From Nitrospirota bacterium (GTDB lineage Bacteria; Nitrospirota; Nitrospiria; SBBL01; JAADHI01), in assembly GCA_029261195.1 (NCBI GenBank), contig JAJDBU010000010.1, positions 1 through 48,172 of the forward strand: a stretch of DNA of 48,172 nt. Reading direction: 5' to 3'. Positions 1,770 to 29,473 of the stretch are shown one piece after another (within the stretch, counting starts at the first letter, position 1; the number at the start of each line of letters is the position of its first letter). Under the pieces are notes generated by a model. That model saw nothing but the letters and a program-made list of their open reading frames with translations. It did not search any database and was not told the DNA's origin. A program made the position numbers and the translations under genes.

Positions 1770-1814
1770 ATATCATTACTCGTCCTGAGATGAGGATCAT
1801 AATGAAAGTTAACG

Positions 1815-2936: not shown

Positions 2937-2939
2937 TGA

Positions 2940-5429
<2,490 letters not shown>

Positions 5430-5488
5430 TTCATCAATTATCACTTTTTCCCCCCATTCAAGGGAAAACTAACGATTACGGAGCTTAA

Positions 5489-7963
5489 ATGCCGGATCTC
5501 GAACACAGAACAACTGTAAACCTGGAAACAGAAATGAAGGCGGCCTACATCGATTACGCGATGAGCGTCATTGTTGGGCGTGCCCTTCCCGATGTCCGGG
5601 ATGGTCTGAAACCCGTACATCGACGGATCCTTTATGCGATGTTCCGGGAAGGCCTGCTTTCCAACCGGCGCTATTCAAAATCGGCCGGTGTCGTTGGCGA
5701 AGTCCTCAAAAAATACCACCCTCACGGCGATACGGCGATTTACGACACAATGGTTCGCATGGCGCAAGACTTCAATCTGCGTTACACCCTCGTTGACGGG
5801 CAGGGAAACTTCGGTTCCGTCGATGGGGATCGGGCTGCCGCCTATCGTTATACCGAGGCTCGCCTGACGAAGGTGGCCGAGGAAATCCTGGCCGACATCG
5901 ACATGGATACGGTCGATTTCACGCCGAACTTTGACGAAACGGTGATGGAACCGCTTGTCATGCCCTCCCGGATTCCCAATCTGCTGATGAACGGCTCCAC
6001 AGGTATTGCCGTCGGCATGGCGACCAATATTCCTCCTCACAATCTGGGAGAACTCTGCGACGGTCTCATTGCCCTCTTAAATGATCGTGAACTCCCGATT
6101 GAAGGGCTCATGGAACACATCAAGGGTCCGGACTTTCCGACCGCCGCTTTTCTCTATGGCAGGGAAGGCATCGACAATGCCTTCAGAACCGGTCGGGGCA
6201 TTCTCGTACTTCGAGCCCGCGCGGTGATCGAGGTCCATCCGAGAACGGAACGCGAGACCATTGTCGTGACCGAACTTCCGTATCAGGTCAACAAGGCGCG
6301 TCTTCTTGAAAAGATCGGTGGCCTGGTCCGGGCCAAGAAACTCGAAGGGATCTCTGAACTGCGAGATGAATCTGACCGGGACGGGATGCGGATCGTCATC
6401 GAACTGAAGAAGGGAGAGATTGGCACCGTCATTCTAAACCAGCTTTACAAACACACCCAGATGCAGAACTCCTTCGGTGTCATCATGTTGGCCCTCGTCA
6501 AGAACCAGCCGAAAGTGATGAACCTTAAGCAGATTCTCCAGCACTTTCTGGATTTCAGGCGGGAAGTCATCGTCAGGCGTAGCCGTTATGAACTCCGTCA
6601 GGCCGAGGCCCGCGCCCATGTACTGGAGGGCTTGAAGGTTGCACTGGATCACCTCGACGCCGTGATTGCTTTAATCCGGGGCTCGGCCTCACCCGACATC
6701 GCGAAGCAGGGTTTGATCAGTCAATTTGAGCTTTCGCTCATCCAGGCTCAGGCCATTCTGGAAATGAGACTCCAGCGCCTCACCGGCCTGGAACGTGAAA
6801 AACTCATTGCGGAACTCAATGCCATTCTGGAAAAGATTGCTGCATTAAAAACACTGCTTGCAGACGATGAGCTCATCCGCAGGGTGATTAAGTCCGATTT
6901 GAAGGAGATCAGGGAAAAGTATGCCGATGCCCGCCGCACAGAAATTGTTCCGGACACCGGTGAGCTAAAGATTGAAGACCTGATCGCCCAGGAAGAAATG
7001 GTGATTACGGTTTCTCGGAGCGGTTATATCAAGCGAAGTCCGTCCTCGAATTACCGGAGCCAGCGAAGGGGCGGCAAGGGAAAGGTCGGGGCCGGTCTGA
7101 AAGAGGAGGACCTGGTGCGCCATCTCTTCATCGCATCGACCCACGATTATCTACTCTTTTTTACTGATACAGGACAGGTCTACTGGTTGAAGGTCTACCA
7201 GGTGCCGGAAGCGAGTCGGACTTCCAAGGGAAAGGCCATCGTCAACCTGCTCCAGCTTGCCCAGACCGAAAAAATCACGGCGATTTTATCCGTTGATCAG
7301 TTTGACGAGGGGCGCTTTGCCGTTATGGCAACCAAAAATGGCACGATTAAAAAGACGGCCTTGAGTGCCTATAGTCACCCCAGAGTGGGCGGCATTCGCT
7401 CAATCAACCTGGCAGAGGGAGATCGATTAATCTCTGTCCGTCTCACAGCAGGCAATCACGACATCCTGTTAGGGACACGACACGGCTTTGCCATCCGCTT
7501 TTCAGAGGAAGATGTGCGCGCAATGGGGCGGATTGCCACCGGCGTGATCGGGATTCGACTGCGGCGGGGTGACGAGGTGATCAGCATGGAGACCCTGGCT
7601 CCCGATCAACGGACATCGATTTTGACGGCGACGGCAATGGGTTTTGGTAAACGGACGGAACTCTCCGAATACCGGCGTGCCCATCGTGGCGGCAAAGGGG
7701 TGATTACCATTCAGACCAGTATAAGAAATGGAGAAGTCATTGATGCCTTCCAGGTCGATCAAGAAGATGAAGTGATGATGATCACCGAAAATGGAAAAAT
7801 TGTTCGACTCAGAATGGCAGATATCCGTGTTATCGGTCGCAACACCCAGGGGGTGACTCTCATCGATATGGCTGAGGGAGATAAACTGGTTTGTGTCGCA
7901 AGGTTGGTTGACAAGGGAGACCGACTCGAAGCGGGAGAAAACGAAGCAGGTGATGAGGATTAA
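5489..7963 (+). CDS. gyrA: DNA gyrase subunit A
   Basis: GyrA cleaves and rejoins DNA during supercoiling. The 824-residue protein has the winged-helix/tower core with the catalytic tyrosine at 121 in AAAYRYTEARL. The C-terminal beta-pinwheel carries a GyrA box, QRRGGKG, at 525-531, which marks true gyrase rather than topoisomerase IV ParC. The position matching E. coli Ser83 in the quinolone region is Thr82 (HGDTAIYD). Ser and Thr both occur naturally there. ACGGAG about 8 bases before the ATG is a good ribosome site. G+C is near 60 percent in the line 5941-6000, much higher than dnaA. The TPR gene downstream follows after 12 bases. Confidence 0.98.
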   Translation: MPDLEHRTTVNLETEMKAAYIDYAMSVIVGRALPDVRDGLKPVHRRILYAMFREGLLSNRRYSKSAGVVGEVLKKYHPHGDTAIYDTMVRMAQDFNLRYTLVDGQGNFGSVDGDRAAAYRYTEARLTKVAEEILADIDMDTVDFTPNFDETVMEPLVMPSRIPNLLMNGSTGIAVGMATNIPPHNLGELCDGLIALLNDRELPIEGLMEHIKGPDFPTAAFLYGREGIDNAFRTGRGILVLRARAVIEVHPRTERETIVVTELPYQVNKARLLEKIGGLVRAKKLEGISELRDESDRDGMRIVIELKKGEIGTVILNQLYKHTQMQNSFGVIMLALVKNQPKVMNLKQILQHFLDFRREVIVRRSRYELRQAEARAHVLEGLKVALDHLDAVIALIRGSASPDIAKQGLISQFELSLIQAQAILEMRLQRLTGLEREKLIAELNAILEKIAALKTLLADDELIRRVIKSDLKEIREKYADARRTEIVPDTGELKIEDLIAQEEMVITVSRSGYIKRSPSSNYRSQRRGGKGKVGAGLKEEDLVRHLFIASTHDYLLFFTDTGQVYWLKVYQVPEASRTSKGKAIVNLLQLAQTEKITAILSVDQFDEGRFAVMATKNGTIKKTALSAYSHPRVGGIRSINLAEGDRLISVRLTAGNHDILLGTRHGFAIRFSEEDVRAMGRIATGVIGIRLRRGDEVISMETLAPDQRTSILTATAMGFGKRTELSEYRRAHRGGKGVITIQTSIRNGEVIDAFQVDQEDEVMMITENGKIVRLRMADIRVIGRNTQGVTLIDMAEGDKLVCVARLVDKGDRLEAGENEAGDED

Positions 7964-8857: not shown

Positions 8858-8935
8858 TTTTTAACCGGAATCCATATGATTTGTTTAGCTGTTAAGGTGA
8901 TCCTCTTGCCCCCTCTACTCTCTGGAAGGAAAACA

Positions 8936-10258
8936 ATGAAGATTCGATTCAATGTACCCATAAACATGAAATTAATAATATTAGGCGGAGTCCTGATCTT
9001 ATTATCTGGGTGTGGGGCATCTCTTCATCCCCTTTATATGCCTGAAAGTTTGGCGCCATCAAGTCACAATTTGAGGGAAGTCGATACTTCACTCTTGCTG
9101 AATACAAGGCATCCTCTTTCATATCCAGAATCAATGGTAGAACTGTCATCACACTTTTTCAAGGGGTTTAAAGCCTATTTTAAAGCTTATGCTCCCACTT
9201 GGAATGTAATCACTTCTGGTGATGCCGAGTTTTCAGTTAGTGTTGATCTTGATCGTGATGGAATATCTGTTTGGGCAGATCCACTTGCGACAAGTAAAAT
9301 TGTTCATCATGGCCATAGGGGGAATACTGATATTGGTATTTCAAAAGTTTCGATGAAATCCCAAATAGGTTTTGGGCAACAACTCGGCCTCCATGCCAAG
9401 CATGAGAACTACAATTTAGGGGGGAAGGCTGCACGAGACGTTTATAATCTATTGGCGCAATCGCCAATAGTGACAAATATCGCCAGAAATCAGAAAGAAA
9501 AGAAACGGGCAGGACAAAGAGCAGAAGAAAAGGCTAAACGGCTTCGGAAGGAATTGTCCGCACGAAAGACGCGGTGCCTTCAGGCCAATGACACGGTATC
9601 CTGCCAGGAATACTTGAAAACCGCAACAGACCTATCTGGAATCAATGAGGCAAAAAAAATATTGAGAGAAGGGGCCGCGCTAAAAATGCAGGTACGCATG
9701 GCTACCTTAAGGAAAAATCAGGTCTGCAAGCTCAAAGAAGGGAAATGGCTCTATTCATCCAAAACCTGTGTAAACAATTTGGCACATGGAAAAGGCGTTG
9801 CGTTGCACCTGAATGGTCAACTGAAATTTGAAGGTACTTTCAATAAAGGGGTGCGCGTGACCGGCTTGCTCAGTTATAACAACGCGCCGATGTATGACGG
9901 CCCGATTGCCGCAGGCAAACCCGACGGCATGGGCATCTGCTTTCACAAAGGAGAGCCGGAAGAGTGTAAATATTACAAAGGCAAGCGAGTGGATGTAATC
10001 TACAAACAACGCATCGCCATGCTCGAACAGCAGCGTATTATGGATGCAAAAATCAAACAAATGGCAGATCAGCAGAAACAACAGCTTGATGCCATGCAGG
10101 AGAACATCGATTCCGTAAAAAGCCGGTCGGCATCGGGTCGGAGTGGTGACGATGAGCCTACGACACTTGGCGGGGTCTTGGTGGATGCCGCAGCCGACAA
10201 GCTGAGGGACAAAGCCGCCGACAAGGCCGTTGACCTCTTGTTTGATGCGCTTTTTTGA
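8936..10258 (+). CDS. Lipoprotein with coiled coil and MORN-like repeats
   Basis: The 440-residue product starts with a lipoprotein signal; the lipobox LLSGC ends at Cys26. An ATG 60 bases further upstream is in frame but has no ribosome site, whereas GGAAGG at 8924-8929 precedes the ATG at 8936. The middle (about residues 175-250) is a Lys/Arg/Glu/Ala-rich coiled coil. Then two or three MORN-like units of the form hGKGxxxhxNGxxxFEGxF and YDGPIAAGKPDGMG follow. A second charged helix (Gln/Met/Lys-rich) and an Asp/Ala/Lys-rich tail end in DLLFDALF. The role is unknown. It may be an envelope scaffold. The A+T-rich first half resembles dnaA more than gyrA in composition. Confidence 0.75.
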   Translation: MKIRFNVPINMKLIILGGVLILLSGCGASLHPLYMPESLAPSSHNLREVDTSLLLNTRHPLSYPESMVELSSHFFKGFKAYFKAYAPTWNVITSGDAEFSVSVDLDRDGISVWADPLATSKIVHHGHRGNTDIGISKVSMKSQIGFGQQLGLHAKHENYNLGGKAARDVYNLLAQSPIVTNIARNQKEKKRAGQRAEEKAKRLRKELSARKTRCLQANDTVSCQEYLKTATDLSGINEAKKILREGAALKMQVRMATLRKNQVCKLKEGKWLYSSKTCVNNLAHGKGVALHLNGQLKFEGTFNKGVRVTGLLSYNNAPMYDGPIAAGKPDGMGICFHKGEPEECKYYKGKRVDVIYKQRIAMLEQQRIMDAKIKQMADQQKQQLDAMQENIDSVKSRSASGRSGDDEPTTLGGVLVDAAADKLRDKAADKAVDLLFDALF

Positions 10259-10326: not shown

Positions 10327-10356
10327 TTGACAGTCTGTCCCATGCCTCGGTATGAT
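10327..10356 (+). promoter_or_regulatory. Promoter of the bd-like oxidase gene (TTGACA-18-TATGAT)
   Basis: A perfect -35 TTGACA (10327-10332) and a five-of-six -10 TATGAT (10351-10356) are 18 bases apart. An ATG at 10352 lies inside the -10 box, so transcripts from this promoter could not use it as a start. This favours the ATG at 10403. Confidence 0.65.
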
Positions 10357-10402
10357 CCCCGATTGTTCACCAGTAGAACACGTCACTTTTAATGGTTTTT
10401 TC

Positions 10403-12355
10403 ATGATCCGGCGACATCGTGGCACTGTCCCATTCTCAGGGCGGTTCTTTTCTTTTTTTCTTTTCTTTTCTCTGTCCCTCTTTTTAACGTCCCTGCCGGT
10501 CTATGGGGAAAATTCACCTTCGCCTGAAATTCATACTGACACTCAATCAAACACTCCAGGAAAAATTTCAGAGGACATCTACCTCCGTATCGATGGGCCT
10601 ATTTCGGGTCCTCCGGCGCCGAAGATGAAATATCCCGAAAGCTACGGAGAAAGCTTTGTCTCAGATAATCGCTCCATCCTCTGGATCTTCATCCAACAGC
10701 ACTTTTTCTTAGGCAGTTTCATCATCGGTGTACCGATGATGGCCTGGATGCTGGAGCTTTTCAGCTTTTTTCGCCGGAAAGCCAATCCGACTGGATCTAA
10801 AAAATACGATGCACTTGCAGGCGAATTCATGCGGATTGCTCTCCCCTTTTATCCTTTGACCATTATTTTCGGTTTCTTTCTTCTGGCCGCCTTTGTCTTT
10901 CTTTACGCAGACTTTTTTAAATATATGTCGACCGTATTCAAGCCGGTGATGTACTGGTACGGCATCGCCTTTTTTATGGAGAATGTGCTCCTCTATGCCT
11001 ACACGCTCACCTGGAGGCGCTGGCAGGAGGGAAGCCAAAAACGGAAGCATCTCATTCTGGGCGGGGCAACCGTCTTTAACGGTCTGGTCATTATCTATCT
11101 GGCTAACGCCTTGATGGCCTTTATGATGTCTCCCTCCGGCATTGATGCAGAAGGGCATTACCTCGGTAACATCTGGAACGCCGTCAACACCGCCCTTTGG
11201 AATCCGCTCAACATCCATCGCATTCTCGCAAGCATCATGTTCAGCGGTGCGGTCATCGCAGCCTATGCCGCCTTTAAAATGATGACGACGCGCGATCCCG
11301 AAAAAAAGGCCCACTACGATTGGATGGGCCATGTCTCCATTATGATCGCCATCGTGAACCTGTTCATCCTTCCCTTTGCCGGTTACTGGTTTGCCAAAGC
11401 GATTTTTATCTACCGTCAGCGCATGGGCGTCACGCTCATGGGAGGGCAACTGAGCTGGCCCTTTATCATGCAGGCCATGTTGATTGGACTTATTTTTATG
11501 ACCGTCAGCTACTATCTCTGGCAGGGCACAGCACGAATGCACGGCACGCACCGTTACCGGCATCTGGTGAAATATATGATGATGGTGCTTGCCGTCGCCT
11601 TCATGATTTGGGCGACGCCTCACACAATTCCTGCCACCAGTGGCGAGTTTAAGGCGATGGGAGGAACGCAGCACCCCATCGTCGGTTATTACGGTACGAT
11701 GGCGGCGAAAAATACCGCGATCAATACGATGATCTTAAGTTTCGGGATCTGCTACATCATTTTTCAGCGTTGCAATAAACAGATCACCGTTTCGTGGTCC
11801 CGCTGGGGAAACCGGGCGATGATCCTACTTTTTGCCGGAACAGAGGCCTATGTAATCTTTATCGGGGTTTACGGTTTTTTCATTCCGGCAGCGCTTCGTG
11901 TGAAACTCGCCTTTCCTCAGTTCGCCGCTACGATGGGCGCCTTGGGGGGGGGGATGATTCTCAATCTAGCCATGTTAAGGCGCTCCAAACTGCTCGGGCC
12001 GATACAGTGGGGCAAACTACCGACAGGCGGTTCAGTCGCCCTCTTTTCTCTGGCTGTCTTCATTTCAACTACAATGGTCTTAATGGGCTATATTCGCTCT
12101 TCCGTCCGACTTGACTGGCATATTACAGAAGTGATGCGGGATACCACGCCCTGGGCCGCAACCCCTCCGATGTCTTATTCGATGAGCATGGTTCTGCTCA
12201 ATGTGGTAATTTTCTGGTGCATCGCCGCTCTGATTTTCCGATCGGGAAGCACCCGATCAGTCTCCATCCCCTACATCAGGCCGGAAGGCATGTCAGACCT
12301 TGCCACTCAGGAAAAAATCTCCTCCGACCGGCCGACCGGAACAGAGTTCTCTTGA
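10403..12355 (+). CDS. Cytochrome bd-like oxidase subunit I (CydA-like), single subunit
   Basis: This 650-residue protein has a signal-like N terminus (RRHRG, a long hydrophobic stretch, VYG then EN), a proline-rich periplasmic linker and many membrane helices aligning with CydA. Comparing with E. coli CydA from memory: His100 (QQHFFLG) matches the heme b595 ligand His19, His272 (NIHRILAS) matches the heme b558 ligand His186, and FFMEN carries the Glu107 match. Glu99 appears lost, and the quinol-binding GRQPW is degenerate (EVMRDTTPW). No cydB lies nearby. Similar divergent single-subunit bd-like proteins are known in Nitrospira and have been proposed as oxidases. The start at 10403 is chosen because the upstream in-frame ATG overlaps a promoter. 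Electron donor and acceptor are unknown. Confidence 0.8.
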   Translation: MIRRHRGTVPFSGRFFSFFLFFSLSLFLTSLPVYGENSPSPEIHTDTQSNTPGKISEDIYLRIDGPISGPPAPKMKYPESYGESFVSDNRSILWIFIQQHFFLGSFIIGVPMMAWMLELFSFFRRKANPTGSKKYDALAGEFMRIALPFYPLTIIFGFFLLAAFVFLYADFFKYMSTVFKPVMYWYGIAFFMENVLLYAYTLTWRRWQEGSQKRKHLILGGATVFNGLVIIYLANALMAFMMSPSGIDAEGHYLGNIWNAVNTALWNPLNIHRILASIMFSGAVIAAYAAFKMMTTRDPEKKAHYDWMGHVSIMIAIVNLFILPFAGYWFAKAIFIYRQRMGVTLMGGQLSWPFIMQAMLIGLIFMTVSYYLWQGTARMHGTHRYRHLVKYMMMVLAVAFMIWATPHTIPATSGEFKAMGGTQHPIVGYYGTMAAKNTAINTMILSFGICYIIFQRCNKQITVSWSRWGNRAMILLFAGTEAYVIFIGVYGFFIPAALRVKLAFPQFAATMGALGGGMILNLAMLRRSKLLGPIQWGKLPTGGSVALFSLAVFISTTMVLMGYIRSSVRLDWHITEVMRDTTPWAATPPMSYSMSMVLLNVVIFWCIAALIFRSGSTRSVSIPYIRPEGMSDLATQEKISSDRPTGTEFS

Positions 12356-13650: not shown

Positions 13651-16600
13651 GTGTGGCACGCGCTCAAAAACATTTTGAGGAGGGAACGGGTGCCGTTTTT
13701 ATTTAAAAACCGCGACATTTTCGTCGTGGAAAATCAGCATTATCTTCTCTGTTTAATCCTCTTAGCCCTGATGCTCTTCAGCCCCGTTTTGAGTCACAAG
13801 GTCGAGGCGAAAAACAGTGCAGGAAAAATCTTTAACGAAGGATTAAAGGCTCTGACTGAAAAAGATTTCAGTTCGGCAGAGAGCTCTTTTCTTTCAGTGC
13901 TACAGATTGCGCCTAAACATGCAGGGGCTTTTTATCACCTCGGTGTCCTCTCTCTTTCAAAAAACCAACTCGACCAGGCCCTGAAGTATTTAAAGCAGGC
14001 CACTCGCATTGATCCTGACTTCTTGCCTGCCTTCCTTCGCATGGCAGAGGCCTATGAGCAGCAGGGGAAATTAAAAGAAGCGATCAAGGCACTCAATACT
14101 GCCTCCCGCCTTGTGAAAAATAAAGACGATGAGATAGCGGAAAACATATCGCAAGGCATCACCCGTCTAAAAAATCAGGAACAAATTCGTCAAAGCATTC
14201 GATTACTCCGCGGAGGGAAACACCTTGAAGCAAAGGTGATCCTTCAGGATGTGCTTTTAATCGAGACCGATATTGCAGAGGCCCACCACTTTTTGGCCGT
14301 CTCTTTAGGCATTGAAGGCAAATTTAAGGAATCCATCAAACATTTTAAAACGGCGCTCCGCCTTAAACCGAACTTAAGTGAGGCAAGAAGCCGACTCATC
14401 GAATTGTATCTGGCTACAGGACAACTTGAGCACGCGCGAGAGGCCGTCGAGAGCGCTCTTTTTTTTCTTGACGATCAGGAGGGTCTTTCAGCTCAGACAT
14501 TCGAAGTACAACTCGACAGCCTGGAAGACCGAATCGTGAGTCATCGTTTGATGGATAAGGCTCTGCAGCAGATCAAAGACAAAAAGAGCGGTGATGCGGC
14601 CACAACCTTTAAGGCCCTCATTCAGACCAATCCCGATCACGCGCTTGCGTATTTTAATCTTGGCATTCTCTCAGCGCAGGAAAAAAAGTTTGACCAAGCC
14701 ATCCCTTTCTTTGAGAAGGCAATCGCGGTCAATCCGGAATACAGAGAGGCACACGAACGTTTAGCGCAGGTCTACGAACTCACACGTTTCTACTCACGGG
14801 CAAGGAAACATTATGAGGAGGCCTTAACCTCCCTTGATGACCAAAGCGCCCCTGAAGGTAAGGCGCTTAAGACAATGATCACCCGTGTCAATGAGGCACA
14901 AGTCCAGTCAGGTCTTGCCGCAGATGAAGCGATGCAAAGCGGAAATGCCGCTTTGATCGAGTTCAAACTTGATCTTGCCATTCAATATTATAAGCAAGCC
15001 AGTTTTTTTAATCGGGAAGATGCAGAAATTAGATATCAATTAGGTCTTTTGTATGAACGGAAAAAACGCCCCGGCCTCGCGACGCAGGCAATGCAGGCAG
15101 CCATTGAACTTTCACCCGGCCACCTTGCAGCACAAAGCTATCTCGCAAAACGCGATGAAACCAGTGGTTTTTTCTACCAGAGCCTCAAACGATGGAAAGA
15201 AATCCAGGGAGGCGCAGAAAACAAGGTACGATTAGAAGGTCTTATCAAAGTAATCGAAGAACAAACGACACCCTTAATGACAAGAGCCATGCAAGTCGCA
15301 GAAGAAGGCGATCCCCTCTCCGCCATCGAAATACTCAAAGAAGCGCGCACATTGGCGCCGGACGATCCCCGTATACGAAGCGCTTTAGCCGGGTACTACC
15401 AAAGGGCGAACTTGCCGATCAAGGCTTTTAATGAACTGAGCGCTGCACGGCTTTTTGAACCAGAGCAGGCGAAACATGATTGGGGGATTGCCAAGCTCTA
15501 CGAAAATGCAGGGCAGTGGTCTGATGCAGCTATTCACTTTAACAAGGCCCTGGAGGCAAAAATCAGTTCAGAGACCCTGAAAAAGAAGGCAGAGCAAGGG
15601 CTCAACCTTGCCATTAAAAAACAAAAAGACATTAAAGCAGCCAATAGATACCTCAAGCGAGCCCGTCGACACCATGAGAAACAAGACTACCGCACAGCCA
15701 TCCGCTGGTATGAAAAAGTCTTCCGACTTTTCCCCGGCCATACCGCCTCTCTTTATTGGGCCGCTACGGCCTATGAAAGCCTGTTCGATTATAAGTCAGC
15801 CTTATCCCTGTATCAGGCCATTCTTGAGGTTGATGACAAGAACACCCTCGCCCACCAGCGTCTCGGTTTTATCAGCGAAGTAGACGGAGAAATTGAAGCG
15901 GCCATTATACATTACCAGACAAATCTTACCTTATCGAAAGGACGGAACAACCGGGAAACCGACTGGGTAAAAGGGCGTTTAAAACCCCTCGAAAAGCGCC
16001 TGAATGTCTCCCTCAATCAAACCCTGCTCAGCTACGACAGCAATCCGACACGCTCATCCAATCCACAGCCGGACCTCCGTTCAAGCGCCGGAATCGGCCT
16101 CAGCTACCTGCTCAAAAAAAACCGGCGACTCCAGATTCCAGTCGGGTTTTCAAGTGACACCCTCTTCTTTTTTGAATCGAACATCCTCTTCAGCCAGCAG
16201 TCGCTCTCTATTGCCGCCAAGGGAGCACGGCGTCCTTTTTCTTATTCCGCCGGCTACAACTTTCAGTTCGGACTCGCAGAAGGCGGGCCGACCGGCTTCG
16301 ATCATATTACTGCTTTGAATTTGGCGTGGTTCTCAAAAAAGGACTACTCCGCCGCCTTAGACTTGAGCTTCGACAGCTTTATTTCGCCTTCGTCCAAACG
16401 CTTTAATGCGAAACGATCCATGTTGCGCCTAAGCGCTCGAAAAGACACGGACAAATATAGAAGTACCCTTTGGTACCGATTTTTCGATAACGATGCAAAC
16501 CTGAACGACCAGGCCTCCGGCTCACACGACCTCGGGTTTTCCTACACATGGCCACTAAGTGAGAAACTCAGGGCCTCCCTTTCTTACGAGGTCAACAGTA

Positions 16601-16881
16601 CCCGTTTTTCCAATATCGATTCTTTCGGAAAAAAGCGTAGAGAAAACCTAACTCAGACCGCAAGCCTGGGGCTCTCTTATCGCCTTGAGGAAACGGTGAT
16701 TCTCAATGCGAGCTTCGTGGAAAGGCACAACGACTCCAACCTCCTTGCAGGTGGCGCCACAATCGAGGAACAACTCGCTGGTCAGGCGGTCACACAGGAA
16801 CAACAGATATCCGGTCAGGCCGCCTCCCTCGGCGACTATTCTCAAGGCCTTATCAGCGCCAGTATTTCATGGTCCTTTTAA
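13651..16881 (+). CDS. Large TPR protein with C-terminal outer-membrane beta-barrel
   Basis: The 1076-residue protein starts with a signal sequence (hydrophobic about 31-48, then VEAKN). About 730 residues of TPR repeats follow, with clear units such as AGAFYHLGVLSLSKNQLDQA and ALAYFNLGILSAQEKKFDQA. From about residue 790 the pattern changes to alternating polar/hydrophobic strands (ending SISWSF), typical of a barrel whose terminal Phe is read by the BAM machinery. The same order is known from exopolysaccharide export proteins (BcsC, PgaA), so polymer export is a reasonable guess, but no synthase gene is adjacent. The GTG start has AGGA 9 bases upstream. It overlaps the next gene by 13 bases. 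Confidence 0.85.
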   Translation: MWHALKNILRRERVPFLFKNRDIFVVENQHYLLCLILLALMLFSPVLSHKVEAKNSAGKIFNEGLKALTEKDFSSAESSFLSVLQIAPKHAGAFYHLGVLSLSKNQLDQALKYLKQATRIDPDFLPAFLRMAEAYEQQGKLKEAIKALNTASRLVKNKDDEIAENISQGITRLKNQEQIRQSIRLLRGGKHLEAKVILQDVLLIETDIAEAHHFLAVSLGIEGKFKESIKHFKTALRLKPNLSEARSRLIELYLATGQLEHAREAVESALFFLDDQEGLSAQTFEVQLDSLEDRIVSHRLMDKALQQIKDKKSGDAATTFKALIQTNPDHALAYFNLGILSAQEKKFDQAIPFFEKAIAVNPEYREAHERLAQVYELTRFYSRARKHYEEALTSLDDQSAPEGKALKTMITRVNEAQVQSGLAADEAMQSGNAALIEFKLDLAIQYYKQASFFNREDAEIRYQLGLLYERKKRPGLATQAMQAAIELSPGHLAAQSYLAKRDETSGFFYQSLKRWKEIQGGAENKVRLEGLIKVIEEQTTPLMTRAMQVAEEGDPLSAIEILKEARTLAPDDPRIRSALAGYYQRANLPIKAFNELSAARLFEPEQAKHDWGIAKLYENAGQWSDAAIHFNKALEAKISSETLKKKAEQGLNLAIKKQKDIKAANRYLKRARRHHEKQDYRTAIRWYEKVFRLFPGHTASLYWAATAYESLFDYKSALSLYQAILEVDDKNTLAHQRLGFISEVDGEIEAAIIHYQTNLTLSKGRNNRETDWVKGRLKPLEKRLNVSLNQTLLSYDSNPTRSSNPQPDLRSSAGIGLSYLLKKNRRLQIPVGFSSDTLFFFESNILFSQQSLSIAAKGARRPFSYSAGYNFQFGLAEGGPTGFDHITALNLAWFSKKDYSAALDLSFDSFISPSSKRFNAKRSMLRLSARKDTDKYRSTLWYRFFDNDANLNDQASGSHDLGFSYTWPLSEKLRASLSYEVNSTRFSNIDSFGKKRRENLTQTASLGLSYRLEETVILNASFVERHNDSNLLAGGATIEEQLAGQAVTQEQQISGQAASLGDYSQGLISASISWSF

Positions 16882-18566
16882 TCATGCGCCTATTTTTATT
16901 AAAAACAACTTTCTTCCAAAACAGGTCTGGACGGCCCGGCCCTGGACGCTTCATCGCACAAAATGCCACCCTCTTGCTCATCGTATTATTTTCGTCTGCG
17001 TCTCTGCTTGCTGCCGAACCCGACTTTGGGCTTGAACCTGGGCTTGAACTTGGAAATGACAACGAGCTGAATGAAAAACACGATATTCAGGACATTTTAT
17101 CAACGATCAATGCCGAAGCGCCCGAGAAAAAACGGATTGAGATCGAAAGAAAGCATTTCAATGCGGAGCAATTGGCATCTCCTGTCACGCCCAAACTTAA
17201 TCCTGTCATCAACCGAATGCTTGAGCATTTCAAAGAACACATGAGCTGGGGCGGCTACTTTAGAAATGAAACGGCCTTTAGAATTGTGAGACCGGCCGCA
17301 TTTACCAAAGTCCGTTCCATCCTTCAATTGGAAAACCGCTATCGATTACCAGGTGGGATGAGCCTATCAGGACGTGGCCGCTGTTTTTATGACCATGTCT
17401 ATGACATTGAAAGCGTCAGTGTCATCCATCCGAGAAAAGGGCCGGAACAGATTCTCGGAGGCAATCTTGATGATGCGGCCGTTGCGGCGATCAGGTCTGA
17501 AAACGTCCGGGATGTCGAGATTGTACAAAACCGCTGCGAGCTGAAAGAGCTTTATCTCGATGCGGGTATTGACCATATTGATATCCGTATCGGAAAACAA
17601 ATTGTGCGCTGGGGGGTTGTCGAAGGGGCTCGTGTGACCGACGAGATCAATCCGCTCGATTTTTATGAGCTGATTTTAAGGGACATTGATGATCGCTACA
17701 TCCCTCTCTTCATGCTCAAGACAGACTTCTACTTTGGCCGGGACAGCCTTGAAACCCTGTTTATTCCGGAGCATCGAGGTCATCGCCCCGCACCCAGGAG
17801 AACGCAATGGGAGCAGTTTCGAGAACTACCCGGACTGGTGAAACCCAAAGACGCATGGCAGGACTTTCCACATCATCTGGACAACGCGGAATATGCCTTT
17901 CGCTACAAGCATGTCTTTACCGGCTTCGAACTATCCTTAAGTTATTTTTCCACCTGGGATGACTTCCCGGCATCCTTTCGAACCATTGAAGGTTTGGGTC
18001 TTTTTGCTGCCAACCCGGAAGTGAATTTTAAACCCGATTTCACTCGATTAAATATCTACGGCACAACCTTTTCAATCACCTTGCCAAACCTTATTTTTAA
18101 CGCAGAAGCGGCCTATGTCGATGGGAAGCACTTCGGTGCACGACTCGGAGAAGGGATAAACACAGTAGCAGGAGAACTTCAGAGCGATTATGCAAAGTAT
18201 GCCATCGGAATCGATACGCACTTTTTAGGAATAGATGTTTCTCCGGCCCTCATTCAGCAATACATCATTGACTACGATGATCGCATCATGGTTGATCGTA
18301 TCGATACCGTCGCAGCCCTCTTTTTACGGAAAGAACTCCTGCACAATATCTGGACCCTCAACCTGCTTGCGATCTATTTCATCAACAACAAAGACATGCT
18401 CATACGACCTCGATCCGATTACAACCTCTCCGACCGTCTCCGCTTTTCATTCGGAGTGGATGTTTTTGAAGGAAAAATTGGAACTGGCTTGCCCGGAGAA
18501 TTCAACTTTGCGGGTTTTTTCGACAACAACGACCGAATTTTCTGGGAAATTACCTACAGCTTTTAA
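16869..18566 (+). CDS. DUF1302-type outer-membrane protein
   Basis: The 565-residue protein has a signal region (hydrophobic LLLIVLFSSASLLAAEP, about 35-51). It contains the stretch GKQIVRWGVVEGARVTDEINPLDFYE near 240-265, which matches the DUF1302 signature (GKQ..WG....R..D.iNP.D). Members of this family are predicted outer-membrane beta-barrels often encoded with transporters or lipoproteins. The C terminus FWEITYSF ends in Phe, as outer-membrane barrels do. It overlaps the upstream gene by 13 bases and is followed directly by the lipoprotein gene. ATG 16884 is an alternative start. Substrate and function are unknown; it is tied to its two neighbours by gene overlap. Confidence 0.78.
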   Translation: MVLLIMRLFLLKTTFFQNRSGRPGPGRFIAQNATLLLIVLFSSASLLAAEPDFGLEPGLELGNDNELNEKHDIQDILSTINAEAPEKKRIEIERKHFNAEQLASPVTPKLNPVINRMLEHFKEHMSWGGYFRNETAFRIVRPAAFTKVRSILQLENRYRLPGGMSLSGRGRCFYDHVYDIESVSVIHPRKGPEQILGGNLDDAAVAAIRSENVRDVEIVQNRCELKELYLDAGIDHIDIRIGKQIVRWGVVEGARVTDEINPLDFYELILRDIDDRYIPLFMLKTDFYFGRDSLETLFIPEHRGHRPAPRRTQWEQFRELPGLVKPKDAWQDFPHHLDNAEYAFRYKHVFTGFELSLSYFSTWDDFPASFRTIEGLGLFAANPEVNFKPDFTRLNIYGTTFSITLPNLIFNAEAAYVDGKHFGARLGEGINTVAGELQSDYAKYAIGIDTHFLGIDVSPALIQQYIIDYDDRIMVDRIDTVAALFLRKELLHNIWTLNLLAIYFINNKDMLIRPRSDYNLSDRLRFSFGVDVFEGKIGTGLPGEFNFAGFFDNNDRIFWEITYSF

Positions 18567-21500
18567 GTGATGACGATCATGATAAAAAAACTAAATCGCT
18601 ATATTGTCTTCCTTTTGATGGTGATGCTTATGATGATGGCTTCTTGTAATCAGCAAGAATTTCCCGGCGCCAGCTCAGTGGACACCAACGCGGCCACTCG
18701 GACCGTCCCTTTCCTGGAGACCTTTATCTTTAACTTTAAAACCGGTGCAGGCCCGATTACTCGTGCGAATCCCGGTGGTAACCTGACGGCCATCTCTCAG
18801 GCTGTTCTGCTCACGATGCTCTCTTCGGCCCAGGAAGAAATTCTGCCGGGGACCGGGGTGGTCACAGGTCTGATCCATGCAAATGGTGCAGCCGTCAAAG
18901 ATGTGGCGCTCAAGGCCACAGATAGCGGAGGAAACCTACTGGCCATTCGGGCGGAAGGACGCTTCGTCGGTAACGACCTGCTTCTACCTGATGGTACAAA
19001 GTGCCCGATACAGGATACTGAAACCATTGTCCTTGACAATATCTGTATCAAGGGCAGCTTGTTTTATAACAGCCTGGGCGGTGTACCCGATTTCTCAAAC
19101 AATAAAGGCACCTCACCTTCGGGGACCTTTACCCTCTTTAATCTCCCTCCGGGAGAGGTCTATTTATGGGCCTTCAGAGGAGGACGAGGTAATGCACGGA
19201 TCAAGGTCTTTGACGGCAGAGTGTCGGTGGGAAAGGTAGCGGTCGTCCCGATTCCGATCTCCACCGTTCTGGTCGATGGACAAGCCACAGAGGCAGAGAC
19301 CACAGATCAAGTGATATTCATTGAAAATGCTGCGGTCACCTTACTTGGCAGCTCTGAAACCAGCCTGAGTACAAAGACCGATTCTGTAGGTCAGTACACC
19401 CTTAACCCCGTAGGAACCAGCGGAAACCACTTGATCAAAATCGCAAAGAGCGGACATTGGACGAGCTATCATGCCCTCAATACCTCTCCCTTTCAGTCAA
19501 CAGACGCACTACCCGATGTCACCTTAAATTTAACGCTATTCTCAAACAGCTATATTAATAAAATTATCGCCCCTGCCAGAATTGCAATCGACGCCAACAG
19601 GGCTGTGCTGACCGGGCGAGCCCGGTTTGGAAACGGCACCTCTCAACACTGTGCCAAATTTACTGTCACCAATGCAGCGGGGCAAGATTTGCTGACAACA
19701 GGAGGCGGGGGGGCCGTATTACTCTACAGTCCGGCCAAGCCCGACCCGCTAAGCGGGATTGATACGCTTCGACCGAACTGCGTCAATCCGGCTGACGGCA
19801 ATCAAACCGGCACCGACGGTTTTTATTTTATCTATAACCTGCCTCCGGGTGAGGTTGATGTCCGCTTTAAATCAACTGTTTCAACCGGGACACCCGGCAA
19901 CGAAGACATCTCAAGCGGCGGCGGTATTTCTAATGTATTCAAGGGGGTCGTCCTCGTACAAGATTTTTCCGTTTCCGGAACTGCCCAGTCTCAAGAACTC
20001 TCAGGAAGCATTCTCGATGAAAATAAGACGGCAGTGGCAGGCGCACGAATCACCATCCTGGGCATTACAGAGAAGAACTATCAATACGACGATGCCGGTA
20101 CATCAAAAACTTTTGCCTTTCCCCTTGATGCAATCAGTGGTGTCGGCGGTAGCTATGCAATCAGAAAAAACAGCGCTGCAAAGAACTCCTTCCCCTTAGA
20201 GGGCGGAAGCCTCTATCGTCTCAAAGTCACAAAAACCGGCCTTCCCGATACTTACCAAGCAGCCTTCATCAACAAAAACGCAACGACACAGGACCTATTC
20301 AGTGTCAGTACCGCCCTAAGCCCGGCTTCCGGTTTGGGGAAGATCTATGGCAATCTAACTCATCTGGCCAGCGGTCGCCCCGCCACTGATGTGCAGCTTC
20401 AGATCACTGACCTTAGAGGAAAGCTTTTGCAGACCATTAACAGCACTGACGGTGTTTTTCAGAGCATGGATCTTCCTCCCGGGCTGGTGAATCTTGCAAT
20501 TACTTCGGGTGATGATTCAGGTAACATGATTGCCCGTATTTTTGCCGACGGCGTGACTTTTGTCGCCTTTCCGATGTCGAAAGTTATCCCCGCAGAGATT
20601 TCCGTCTCGGGCGGTGTCCGGGATCTTGACAAGTCATTGGTCCCCCAAACCACCTTGAGTGTGCTGGGTCGCACGACGGACCCAGCCGGCAGGCTGAGCG
20701 TCGATGTCTCTGGAAACTACAGCGGTAGCCTTGAATCAAACGGACGTTTTGTGATCAAAGCCGAACAGAACAATTTCTACGACACCTATAATGTCTTTCC
20801 AAACACCGGCTTAGTCACGGCCCTCACGCCCTCCGACCTGTATGCAATCTCTCATTCGCAAATAAAATTAATCGCAGGCACAGCCGGTGTTCAGATTGAC
20901 AACAGCAAGGGCATCGTTGTCGGAACAAGCCTTGCGCATGGTTTTTCGGCGAAGATCTCCACCACCCCCTGCACGGACCCCGGCCCCCATAAAAGCACAC
21001 TCGGTTTTTTCAATCAGGACACCATCATTGATGTGGCGGTCACACAGTGTACGGGACCCGATAGCGTGACGCTGTTTTTTGGAAATGACTCTGGAGACGG
21101 GGGTTTTGTCATTGATCAAAGTTATACCGTCGGCACAAATCCAACAGACATCGCAACAGGTGATTTTAACGGCGACGGCATCGCCGACCTCGTCGTCTCG
21201 AATTTTGTCAGCGCAAACACGGCGGGTGACGTCATCTCTTTTTCTGTTTTATTGGGAGACAAAAAATCAGGATTTACTCTGCAAGCCCTGCCGGTTTCCG
21301 CAAGTGACAACATTGGAAATACCTTCGCTGATCCCAGTGCCGTCGCCGTTGGACTATTTAATGCCGATGCCGATCTCGACATTGCCCTGGCCTATCGAGG
21401 AGATAATCGTATACTGGTTTACACTGGAAACGGAGAGGGCAGCTTCTCACCGAAACTGGATGCCACCACCCAAAATATCGACTCCCATATCGTCGGAGCA

Positions 21501-22493
21501 AACCCCTCGGATCTGATCACCGGAGACTTTAATAAAGACAAGCGTATCGACCTGGCCGTCGCCAACAAAGACAGTAACACCCTGACGGTTTTGCTCGGCA
21601 ATACCGCCGGAGGCTTCCCGACGACCGATACAGTGCCTGTTGGAGACAAGCCTGCCTCACTGGTATCCGTCGATCTGAACGCCGATGGACAAAGCGATCT
21701 GGCAGTCATCAATCAAGTTTCCAGGACGGTCACAATTTTGACCAGTGATGTAAGCGGGAAGTTTCTTCCCCTCACCGACGCAAACGATGTGTTGGTTCCA
21801 GACCTTGTGCTTTCAGGTAATCCCTCAGCACTCACCTGGGGCGATTTTAACGGTGACAACCGGGTGGATTTGGCGATTGCACTACAATCAACAAACGAGG
21901 CCATTGTTTTTTTTGGAGACGGTGATGGTCGATTTACCCAGTCGAGGGCGGAAGCGCTCACTATTACCGCCCCGAATGACATGCTCGCGCTCGATGCCAA
22001 CCAGGATGGTCTTCACGACCTGCTCTCAGTGGGCTCCGGCATTGAGACCCTGCTTGGAACAGAAACGCCAGCCAGCGGAATGTCTGTAGAGGTACGAGAC
22101 CTGAACGGCACAGTCAGCGGCACCACGCTTTATCCTGGAAGCGGCACATCCGGCACTTCGGCAGACGGCAGCTTTGTCATCCTCAACGTTTCTCCCGGAT
22201 TGACAATGACGCGTGTCAGCAGCGGGGGGGCCGGCAACAGTCTCATCGACACCATTGCAGGCGCCGTTGTTTTTACAAAAATCCTGACCGCCACTGTCGC
22301 TCCCTTCCAGATTTCAGTTGCAGGGGCAGCCTTTGATCCTGTCGGTCCCGCACCCGGCGTTCCGGTCGGCAATGTCAAAGTCGAGGTCTTGGGCATGGGG
22401 ATACAAACCACCACCGATGGCCAGGGCGCCTATCAATTTACCCTGGATAGCAACAGCGAATACGCCCTGAAACTCTTCTTTGAAACGCCGTAA
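18567..22493 (+). CDS. Giant lipoprotein with carboxypeptidase-regulatory-like and FG-GAP repeats
   Basis: The 1308-residue product has a lipoprotein signal; the lipobox MASC puts the lipidated Cys at 27. Residues about 95-770 hold repeated beta-sandwich units of the carboxypeptidase-regulatory-like/CnaB sort, each marked by G-F-L-PPGEV or S-G-V-x-D motifs. Residues about 790-1150 hold five or six FG-GAP/VCBS units with calcium-loop motifs (DFNGDGIADL, DFNKDKRIDL, DLNADGQSDL, DFNGDNRVDL, DANQDGLHDL), predicting a beta-propeller. A last regulatory-like domain ends the protein. It abuts the DUF1302 gene. GTG 18567, ATG 18570 and ATG 18579 are possible starts. A surface-exposed binding or scaffold role is inferred from the domains. 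Confidence 0.8.
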   Translation: MMTIMIKKLNRYIVFLLMVMLMMMASCNQQEFPGASSVDTNAATRTVPFLETFIFNFKTGAGPITRANPGGNLTAISQAVLLTMLSSAQEEILPGTGVVTGLIHANGAAVKDVALKATDSGGNLLAIRAEGRFVGNDLLLPDGTKCPIQDTETIVLDNICIKGSLFYNSLGGVPDFSNNKGTSPSGTFTLFNLPPGEVYLWAFRGGRGNARIKVFDGRVSVGKVAVVPIPISTVLVDGQATEAETTDQVIFIENAAVTLLGSSETSLSTKTDSVGQYTLNPVGTSGNHLIKIAKSGHWTSYHALNTSPFQSTDALPDVTLNLTLFSNSYINKIIAPARIAIDANRAVLTGRARFGNGTSQHCAKFTVTNAAGQDLLTTGGGGAVLLYSPAKPDPLSGIDTLRPNCVNPADGNQTGTDGFYFIYNLPPGEVDVRFKSTVSTGTPGNEDISSGGGISNVFKGVVLVQDFSVSGTAQSQELSGSILDENKTAVAGARITILGITEKNYQYDDAGTSKTFAFPLDAISGVGGSYAIRKNSAAKNSFPLEGGSLYRLKVTKTGLPDTYQAAFINKNATTQDLFSVSTALSPASGLGKIYGNLTHLASGRPATDVQLQITDLRGKLLQTINSTDGVFQSMDLPPGLVNLAITSGDDSGNMIARIFADGVTFVAFPMSKVIPAEISVSGGVRDLDKSLVPQTTLSVLGRTTDPAGRLSVDVSGNYSGSLESNGRFVIKAEQNNFYDTYNVFPNTGLVTALTPSDLYAISHSQIKLIAGTAGVQIDNSKGIVVGTSLAHGFSAKISTTPCTDPGPHKSTLGFFNQDTIIDVAVTQCTGPDSVTLFFGNDSGDGGFVIDQSYTVGTNPTDIATGDFNGDGIADLVVSNFVSANTAGDVISFSVLLGDKKSGFTLQALPVSASDNIGNTFADPSAVAVGLFNADADLDIALAYRGDNRILVYTGNGEGSFSPKLDATTQNIDSHIVGANPSDLITGDFNKDKRIDLAVANKDSNTLTVLLGNTAGGFPTTDTVPVGDKPASLVSVDLNADGQSDLAVINQVSRTVTILTSDVSGKFLPLTDANDVLVPDLVLSGNPSALTWGDFNGDNRVDLAIALQSTNEAIVFFGDGDGRFTQSRAEALTITAPNDMLALDANQDGLHDLLSVGSGIETLLGTETPASGMSVEVRDLNGTVSGTTLYPGSGTSGTSADGSFVILNVSPGLTMTRVSSGGAGNSLIDTIAGAVVFTKILTATVAPFQISVAGAAFDPVGPAPGVPVGNVKVEVLGMGIQTTTDGQGAYQFTLDSNSEYALKLFFETP

Positions 22494-26952: not shown

Positions 26953-26981
26953 TTGACAAGCTTAAAACGCTGTTGTATATT
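26953..26981 (+). promoter_or_regulatory. Consensus promoter of the TonB receptor locus (TTGACA-17-TATATT)
   Basis: TTGACA (26953-26958), a 17-base spacer and TATATT (26976-26981) form a near-ideal housekeeping promoter, with +1 near 26988. The same -35, spacing and -10 occur before iscR. Confidence 0.8.
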
Positions 26982-26995
26982 GCGCTCGCAATACG

Positions 26996-27018
26996 ATATT
27001 GAGAATTGTTCTCAATAT
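26996..27018. promoter_or_regulatory. Fur-box-like operator dyad
   Basis: A perfect 10-bp dyad, ATATTGAGAA and TTCTCAATAT around TTG, lies just after the predicted transcription start. Its core TGAGAATTGTTCTCA (27000-27014) matches 11 of 14 defined positions of the 7-1-7 Fur consensus. Iron-dependent repression is inferred. Confidence 0.65.
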
Positions 27019-27053
27019 AAGTTAAGTCTAGCGGTCAGCACCATCCAGAACCT

Positions 27054-27094
27054 AAAGGCCCAGAGCAATGAAACAATGCTCCGGGCCTTTTTTT
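27054..27094 (+). terminator. Intrinsic terminator within the TonB receptor leader (possible attenuator)
   Basis: AAAGGCCCAGAGCA (27054-27067) pairs with TGCTCCGGGCCTTT (27077-27090), 13 of 14 positions, followed by an uninterrupted T-run to 27094. It lies between the promoter and the ribosome site of the receptor, and no plus-strand gene upstream needs it. Either it is an attenuator or it ends a small RNA of about 105 nt. Confidence 0.75.
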
Positions 27095-27126
27095 GTGGTG
27101 ATACAACAGACAGAGGAAAGGGAAAA

Positions 27127-29304
27127 ATGATCATGACGGTGAACAGATGTTGTTACAAAACGGGCTTGTTCTTGTTGTTGGGTTTCAGTCTTTACATGGG
27201 ATTTTCGTATCAACCCGCCTGGGCCGAAGAGAAAAAAGGCGGGAAGGTCGCGAATAAACTTGAACTTGAAGAAATCACGGTGACGCCGACAGGAATCAAG
27301 GAGGAACTTAGGGATTTTCATGGAACCGTTGATATCGTCACGGAACAGGATATTGAGGATTGGAAACCGCTTCACAGTATCGACCTACTAAAAAGGTTGC
27401 CCGGTCTCAATGCCTATGATGAAGATCCCGCAGGTTTAAAACCGAGCATCGGTATCCGAGGTCTCGATCCAAGCCGAAGCCGTGGCGGGGTGGTTCTCTT
27501 GATTGACGGCATTCCCTTTAACCCGGGCCCTTATGCCGACCCTGGAGCCTACTATAATGTTCCGATTCAAAGAATCCAACGAATCGAGGTCATAAAGGGA
27601 GGCTCTTCAATTCTCTATGGCCCAAATGCAGTAGGCGGTGTCGTGAACTATATTACGAAGGATCCTCCGGATAAACCGGAGTTCTGGACACGACAAACTT
27701 TTGGAGACGATTCCCTTTGGGTTGGGGAATTTTCCTATGGGGGAAGATGGGAAGATGTCGCAGGCTTCATCGATTTCTCCCGCCGTCAGGGAGATGGCTT
27801 CCGGGATAACAGCGCATTTGAGACCAACGATTTTTCAACGAAGTGGATCTATAATGTCGGAACAAGCTCGGATGTCACGCTTCATTTGAATTACTACGAT
27901 GAAGACAGCGAAACGCCTCGCGGGATGTCTCCGACACAATTTAACGAGAGCGTCAGTTTAACAAAGAGTCCGAATGACTTTTTCATCGGCCAGCGGATCA
28001 GTTTTGATGCAACAATAAACACTCAGTTGACCGCGAACAGCAGCTTCCGCCTACTCCTCTATATGAACATGTTTGAACGATTCTGGCATATCGAGGGAGA
28101 CAGCAAGTTTTTTGGAGATAAAACCGATCCGAATAACATCATTCCTAAAAGAACGCTGAGTGCATTTAAGCGGCGTTTCAATGTCCTCGGTATCGAACCC
28201 CAGTACACCTTGGCGCACAAGCTGTTTGACATCCCGAACGATCTGATTACCGGGATTCGCCTCTCGGCGGAACGTGAAAATGAAAACCGGGCGGAAAACG
28301 ATAACCTGACATCGCGGCATGGCATCACCTTCAGTACCAGCGAACTGGAAGCAGTTGCAGTGGCCTGGTATGTCCAGAATGCCTTTGAGGTGACAGATCG
28401 TTGGAAGGTGACCCCTGGTATCCGGATCGAAGCGGTTCGCATGTCGCGGGATAATAACCTGACTAATTCAAACCTCCAAGATATTGTCGACAAGGGGCCG
28501 AAGGGGGGCACTGTGGGGAGAGAAACCTACCTGACGGTGCTGCCGGGTGTCGGAATGACCTATGACCTCACCCGGGAGACCATCCTGCATGGGGGGATCT
28601 GGCGAACGGCGTCACTCCCCCAGTTTGGATCGGGGGCGGAGGCAATCGATACGGTGACCGGCGTGGTACGGGATAATATCGACCCCGAAATTGGTATGAC
28701 TTACGAACTCGGAATCCGTTCCACCCCCGCCGATTGGCTGGCGGTCGAAAGCACCCTCTTTCTGTTGACCTACGATGATCAGATCGATCGTATAGGGGGT
28801 GTTAATGATAATTTCAACGATTCGCAACATTACGGTCTGGAAGGATCGCTAGTAGTCGATTTCGGGGAATTATCCCGTTCGGCAAAGGGGCTTTCCACCT
28901 ATCTGAACTGGACCGTCATGAAGGCCGAATTTACGAAAGGTCCCTTTGATGGAAAGGATACGCCGCTTGCTCCGGATCTCACCGTGAACGGGGGCATTGA
29001 CTACAAGCATGAAATCAATGCCTCGCAATTTGTTTCAACAGGCATCTCGTTTCGCTACGTCGGTGAACGCTTCTCGGATGAGGAGAATACCGTTAAAGAA
29101 AATGCCAGCGGAAGCAAGGGGGAACTTGAGGCCTATACGGTTTGGGATGCCCGCCTGGCTTATCATCATGAAGACGCGGGGCTTGAACTCTTTGCCGGCG
29201 TCCGGAACCTCTTCGACGAAAAATATAAACTCTGGCGATTCGGGGGCGGGATCATCCCCGGTGTCGATCAGACCGTTTATGGCGGTGTATCCAAATCATT
29301 TTAG
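27127..29304 (+). CDS. TonB-dependent outer-membrane receptor, FecA-like
   Basis: The 725-residue protein imports a metal chelate, probably a ferric siderophore or ferric citrate. It has a signal peptide (about 1-33, ending PAWA), a TonB box LEEITVTP near 47-54, a plug domain with IGIRGLDPS, LLIDGIPFNPGP and VIKGGSSILYGPNAVGGVVNYITK, and a 22-strand-type barrel ending in Phe (VSKSF). AGGAAAGGG at 27114-27122 precedes the ATG; ATG 27133 is also possible. An in-frame TTG at 26953 lies in the -35 box and can be dismissed. Regulation by a Fur-like repressor and a leader terminator is suggested by the upstream sites. Confidence 0.92.
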   Translation: MIMTVNRCCYKTGLFLLLGFSLYMGFSYQPAWAEEKKGGKVANKLELEEITVTPTGIKEELRDFHGTVDIVTEQDIEDWKPLHSIDLLKRLPGLNAYDEDPAGLKPSIGIRGLDPSRSRGGVVLLIDGIPFNPGPYADPGAYYNVPIQRIQRIEVIKGGSSILYGPNAVGGVVNYITKDPPDKPEFWTRQTFGDDSLWVGEFSYGGRWEDVAGFIDFSRRQGDGFRDNSAFETNDFSTKWIYNVGTSSDVTLHLNYYDEDSETPRGMSPTQFNESVSLTKSPNDFFIGQRISFDATINTQLTANSSFRLLLYMNMFERFWHIEGDSKFFGDKTDPNNIIPKRTLSAFKRRFNVLGIEPQYTLAHKLFDIPNDLITGIRLSAERENENRAENDNLTSRHGITFSTSELEAVAVAWYVQNAFEVTDRWKVTPGIRIEAVRMSRDNNLTNSNLQDIVDKGPKGGTVGRETYLTVLPGVGMTYDLTRETILHGGIWRTASLPQFGSGAEAIDTVTGVVRDNIDPEIGMTYELGIRSTPADWLAVESTLFLLTYDDQIDRIGGVNDNFNDSQHYGLEGSLVVDFGELSRSAKGLSTYLNWTVMKAEFTKGPFDGKDTPLAPDLTVNGGIDYKHEINASQFVSTGISFRYVGERFSDEENTVKENASGSKGELEAYTVWDARLAYHHEDAGLELFAGVRNLFDEKYKLWRFGGGIIPGVDQTVYGGVSKSF

Positions 29305-29335
29305 CGTGTTTTTTCACTGAAAGGAGATAAAAAGA

Positions 29336-29473
29336 ATGAAGATAAAGTATTCTCTTCCGGTGCTTGCTTGCCGGAGTTTTGTAATCTTGCTGAAGAAGCT
29401 GTTTACCGCCAAGGCAGTAAAGAACCCCCTTGCGGGCCGCCGAATTTTGAATGGAGGGAATCTGCCATGCTGA
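29336..29473 (+). CDS. Possible 45-codon small gene coupled to the PepSY gene
   Basis: An ATG at 29336 with AGGAG nine bases upstream opens a 45-codon frame starting MKIKYSLPVLACRSFVILLKK: a basic, hydrophobic peptide. Its stop (TGA 29471-29473) overlaps the start of the PepSY protein gene (ATGCTGA), suggesting translational coupling. It could also be the 5' remnant of a longer gene interrupted when the G+C-rich PepSY segment was inserted. No homologue is recognised. Confidence 0.45.
   Translation: MKIKYSLPVLACRSFVILLKKLFTAKAVKNPLAGRRILNGGNLPC

Follow-up and report, generated by a model that had tools for sequence, protein, structure and literature searches.

The DNA analysed here, a stretch of 48,172 nucleotides to which we refer as the window, contains three consecutive genes whose products are all predicted to reside at the outer membrane, and it raises the question of whether these genes are chance neighbours or encode parts of one apparatus and, if so, what this apparatus would do. 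Gene 1 (positions 13651..16881) encodes an outer-membrane protein that combines TPR repeats with a 14-stranded β-barrel, gene 2 (16869..18566) a DUF1302 outer-membrane barrel of 565 amino acids (aa), and gene 3 (18567..22493) a lipoprotein of 1308 aa. All three lie head to tail on the forward strand; genes 1 and 2 share 13 bp, and the gap between genes 2 and 3 is 0 bp. The ORF positions and the Pfam assignments thus agree with an earlier note on this DNA, made from the sequence alone, which had described the three genes as overlapping or abutting and had seen no glycosyltransferase near them; none was found by Pfam among the scanned genes of the window. For genes 1 and 3 the assigned starts are uncertain, as other possible start codons are located close downstream. 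An Rfam search gave no match.

The window begins with dnaA, dnaN, gyrB and gyrA in this order (447-7963), and is therefore probably located around the origin of replication. It also encodes a 460-aa lipoprotein-like protein with no Pfam match (8876-10258), a 667-aa membrane protein with a partial match to subunit I of cytochrome bd oxidase (51 bits) that we regard as a bd-like oxidase (10352-12355), and a TonB-dependent receptor with a PepSY transmembrane protein encoded behind it, a pair likely involved in iron uptake (26953-30660).

The 1076-aa product of gene 1 starts with a signal sequence, continues with a long periplasmic solenoid in which Pfam recognises many TPRs, and ends with a barrel domain (16000..16878, forward strand) that carries a terminal Phe. 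AlphaFold2 modelled this domain with 14 strands at a pLDDT of 91.8. Foldseek searches with the barrel yielded generic porins as the best matches, with CymA and OmpG near the top, PgaA and BcsC at lower ranks, and no Slam structure among the matches. PF04575, the model of the Slam barrel (T11SS), does not match the window copy of the barrel; it is above its cut-off in Gammaproteobacterial homologues (L098, 30.0 bits against a cut-off of 22), and the genomes G060 and G062 also give PF04575 matches over the cut-off. PF24575, which represents the Slam-type N-terminal TPR, scores 40.2 bits on gene 1 against a cut-off of 35.2, but generic TPR models fit the same repeats far better. Strong PF04575 members were sought in 143 genomes related to G058 and none was found at E<=1e-12, and PDB sequence searches with the barrel and DUF1302 profiles returned TPR or chance matches only. 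Two shorter TPR-plus-barrel proteins (L126:367-1932, 521 aa; L125:547-2163, 538 aa) are above the PF04575 cut-off and constitute a second Slam-like family in Nitrospirota.

The assignment of gene 2 is based on the Pfam model DUF1302 (PF06980; 42.7 bits against a cut-off of 23.2). Its structural model has approximately 18 strands, with a mean pLDDT of only 65, and is porin-like as judged by Foldseek. Named relatives of the window DUF1302 protein come from Ca. Manganitrophus, Ca. Manganitrophaceae and other Nitrospirota MAGs, so that the window would most likely belong to the Nitrospiria, close to Ca. Troglogloeales and related to manganese oxidisers.

The gene 3 product possesses a lipobox (MMMAS-C27), Ig-like CarboxypepD_reg domains (67.1 bits), an FG-GAP β-propeller (104.5 bits; 21069..22046, forward strand) with five Asp-rich calcium-type motifs, and Ig-like domains at its C-terminus. 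The codon of the lipidated Cys27 is found at 18645..18647 (forward strand) and opens a conserved C-x(4)-FP motif, in which C27 and P33 are invariant across 18 homologues. Pfam recognised no 8-strand cargo barrel, a typical feature of T11SS cargo, either in the lipoprotein or in the small secreted proteins of related loci described below. Exposure of the lipoprotein at the cell surface is plausible, and so is export. Genes of the PMT/TMTC-like protein O-mannosyltransferase type are present in or beside six operons, two of them (L080, L081) assigned through Pfam PMT/PMT_2/TMTC matches that are partly below the cut-off, and four (L045, L046, L062, L083) by sequence resemblance. Animal TMTC enzymes modify Ig-like cadherin domains, and the presence of these genes would fit with a glycosylation of the Ig-like domains of the lipoprotein.

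That the three genes form a unit is evident from their relatives. DUF1302 searches of 58 related genomes led to dozens of loci, of which about 40 were mapped, together with the named loci. The triad occurs in the same order and on the same strand in five families of the Nitrospiria (f1, f5, f7, f9, f11). The lipoprotein gene directly follows a DUF1302 gene in 26 of 28 cases; one of the remaining two is at a contig end, and the other is an orphan copy in G014 (G014:C1:1402116; L132:11018-14833) with neither a DUF1302 nor a TPR-barrel gene alongside. Apart from one protein of another family, every TPR-barrel copy that does not lie at a contig end adjoins DUF1302. Pairwise protein distances from 20 modules gave Mantel r values of 0.87, 0.95 and 0.91 between the three proteins, and their trees are congruent, with paralogous modules of one genome clustering by class and not by species in all three; since the genomes compared are kin, the figures for adjacency, co-occurrence and distance are not independent trials. 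A separation of the three genes in relatives, by which the earlier note would have been refuted, was hence not observed.

A further arrangement is a fusion, in which the TPR domain, the 14-strand barrel, a small barrel termed SBx and DUF1302 are joined in one ORF of ~1,580-1,600 aa, with the lipoprotein gene behind it. Four related genomes (G000, G001, G002, G003), that of the window among them, possess this fusion, and a contig-truncated example is present in G007; the second copy in the window genome (contig C43) consists of a fused ORF of 1582 aa followed by a lipoprotein of 1358 aa. Because the triad is kept together in many relatives and the pores are sometimes fused, it is very likely that the proteins belong to a single machine, so far undescribed, which would place proteins on the cell surface or outside the cell. 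We have high confidence, on the grounds of these genomic comparisons, that the TPR-barrel, DUF1302 and lipoprotein constitute a real conserved unit; with its additional parts it is an apparently undescribed outer-membrane unit, and no paper describing the set was found in the open-access library searched.

The undescribed outer-membrane system proposed by the earlier note is thus supported, and it is conserved, but the limitation to three genes was too narrow, since further components are encoded in relatives, namely SBx, small secreted proteins, a LolA-like carrier and an RND-type MMPL pump. Class I loci, to which the window belongs, comprise TPR-barrel, DUF1302 and lipoprotein, in most cases with tsaD upstream, and lack SBx and secreted genes; class II loci place small secreted proteins before the same triad; and fused-form loci hold the TPR-barrel-SBx-DUF1302 ORF plus the lipoprotein. 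In class III, three secreted proteins, DUF1302, a small barrel, the TPR-barrel and a shorter lipoprotein follow each other, while class IV consists of LolA-like, DUF1302 and MMPL, or of DUF1302 without the others. The Gammaproteobacterial form comprises a secreted protein, LolA-like, DUF1302, a small barrel and the TPR-barrel. Beside class IV modules, L064:13866-17000 and L067:6633-7919 encode surface-type proteins (FG-GAP or propeller-like) that start with a CxxCH haem motif, which suggests a redox link in one family.

SBx represents a new family without a Pfam match. With a profile built without the fusion proteins, it was found in the identical 19 of the 58 genomes that possess the TPR-barrel. 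As predicted for a single system, SBx is absent at the window-type loci yet present elsewhere in the same genomes: in each of the seven class I genomes, an SBx gene directly follows an MMPL gene at an unlinked locus, with a LolA-like gene upstream in five of the seven. Tandem arrays of secreted-protein genes follow the unlinked SBx locus in G011, G013, G014, G017 and G003, and these are SEC4-related where compared. In the window genome, MMPL and SBx are located on contig C55, and a fragment of a LolA-like gene, at the edge of the examined stretch, is found with two SEC4 genes on C43. Among the secreted families, hhalign related only SEC2 to SEC3 and SEC4 to SEC9, and more weakly SEC4 to SEC7 and SEC1 to SECg. 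An hxQxhx[DNQES] motif occurs ~3-10 fold more often than in composition shuffles, an excess that alternating β patterns alone could explain in part. In Nitrospirota as well as in Gammaproteobacteria, an O-methyltransferase gene adjoins that of the LolA-like protein (L142:4157-5260, L096:7031-8131), and moaA genes, at some loci accompanied by moaC-like ones, repeatedly flank SBx or secreted-protein genes (L142, L143, L144, L146, L148, also L050 and L062).

We suggest, with a probability of roughly 0.45, that these components form a Slam-like multi-barrel system for export and surface display that is joined to a DUF1302-LolA-MMPL transport module. A single system of several components would then span the envelope, and the three window genes would encode its outer-membrane part. 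The lipoprotein and the small proteins would leave the cytoplasm via Sec, and the former would be lipidated and subsequently reach the outer membrane by lipoprotein sorting. In the periplasm, the TPR solenoid may recruit both, and the Slam-like 14-strand barrel, assembled with the barrels of DUF1302 and SBx, would carry the lipoprotein to the outside and probably do the same for the small proteins. MMPL and the LolA-like protein could supply energy or a lipid or hydrophobic component, and the result would be a layer or appendage of surface lipoprotein, stabilised by calcium and O-mannosylated in some lineages, together with secreted matrix proteins. This functional proposal, which builds on association, architecture and lipobox conservation, carries moderate confidence as to mechanism, as opposed to the association itself. 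Against this proposal stand the lack of PF04575 in the window barrel, of Slam among the Foldseek matches and of a Pfam-recognised 8-strand barrel in the putative cargo, as well as the known roles of DUF1302, LolA-like and MMPL proteins with hydrophobic small molecules. It is also possible, although we consider this more tentatively, that the system is categorically new, with the 14-strand TPR barrel, SBx and DUF1302 united in an obligate complex, at times within a single polypeptide; this complex would be fed by MMPL and LolA-like proteins and build a surface layer from the giant lipoprotein and the small secreted proteins.

DUF1302 proteins are already known from transport modules with DUF1329 (LolA-like) proteins and RND pumps; deletion of AmeABCD (DUF1302, DUF1329, RND) lowers monoterpene tolerance (PMC6394551), and PP_0765/PP_0766 are required for the use of Tween 20 (PMC10866462). 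The system might hence transport a lipid or a small molecule of hydrophobic or amphiphilic nature. DUF1302 would then serve an Ame-type MMPL/LolA-like system as its pore in the outer membrane, and the TPR-barrel, lipoprotein and secreted proteins would be accessories, a view with which the LolA-DUF1302-MMPL-SBx loci of Nitrospirota and the O-methyltransferase genes adjoining LolA-like genes at several loci are in keeping. We nevertheless consider it rather unlikely, as it leaves the almost obligatory 1300-aa lipoprotein, the secreted-protein arrays and the TPR-barrel unexplained, MMPL and LolA-like are missing from the window locus, and a biosynthetic cluster was not found in the loci examined.

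The likeness of gene 1 to polymer exporters, drawn by the earlier note, did not hold up. Polysaccharide export in the manner of PgaA/BcsC would account for the TPR-plus-barrel architecture and for the weak, TPR-driven matches of gene 1 to BcsC and PgaA models, but it is very improbable given a barrel of 14 instead of 16 strands, the Foldseek ranking of PgaA and BcsC below CymA and OmpG, and the lack of a polysaccharide synthase or synthase-type glycosyltransferase in the loci inspected, where the nearby enzymes resemble protein O-mannosyltransferases. An apparatus for metal oxidation or extracellular electron transfer, to which the occurrence of the system in Ca. Manganitrophus and its relatives and the CxxCH motifs of the class IV surface proteins could point, is equally hard to credit: a haem motif was sought in the TPR protein and the lipoprotein and found in neither, the system also occurs in groundwater Nitrospirae and, in part, in Gammaproteobacteria, and the candidates for Mn oxidation in the literature are Cyc2 and PCC complexes. 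Each family does occur elsewhere (DUF1302 without the others, and the single orphan lipoprotein gene), but the conserved gene order, the fused forms, the shared occurrence and the congruence of the trees contradict the notion of three unrelated neighbours so broadly that its probability is minute.

The system is of interest because outer-membrane export is almost unstudied in Nitrospirota, the manganese-oxidising lineage included. The four-family outer-membrane unit, with its predicted three-barrel fusion protein, is a directly testable complex; it may connect Slam-type lipoprotein display with MMPL/LolA-type lipid transport, and it offers DUF1302 a role beyond the transport of small molecules.

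Among known systems, Slam/T11SS (DUF560, PF04575) shares with the triad a TPR domain, a 14-strand barrel, and a gene position beside that of a lipoprotein; T11SS barrels have 14 strands, and PgaA has 16 (PMC8406197). The neighbouring protein, a putative cargo, is recognisable by its lipobox and by its adjacent position, both in the window and for the 26 lipoprotein genes noted above, and the Gammaproteobacterial barrel homologues exceed the PF04575 cut-off. The triad differs in its far longer TPR region, the additional DUF1302 and SBx barrels, a window copy of the barrel that PF04575 does not match directly and a lipoprotein without a recognised 8-strand cargo barrel; the window protein would hence work like Slam without being filed as a member. 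PgaA and BcsC share the TPR region and C-terminal barrel but have 16 strands and synthase partners, and no synthase is found among the scanned window genes. GfcD of the group 4 capsule system, with two barrels in one polypeptide (PMC11494523), is comparable to the fused paralogue in uniting several outer-membrane barrels, whereas the latter has three predicted barrels plus TPR, belongs to other families and lacks a capsule operon. With the Ame-type and PP_0765-type DUF1302-DUF1329-RND/MMPL modules, the system has DUF1302, LolA-like (PF17131/DUF1329) and MMPL proteins in common; LolA-like and MMPL genes, expected at the same locus in such a module, are absent from the window locus and lie on C43 and C55 of the window genome, and the system described here adds the TPR-barrel, SBx, the large lipoprotein and the secreted proteins.
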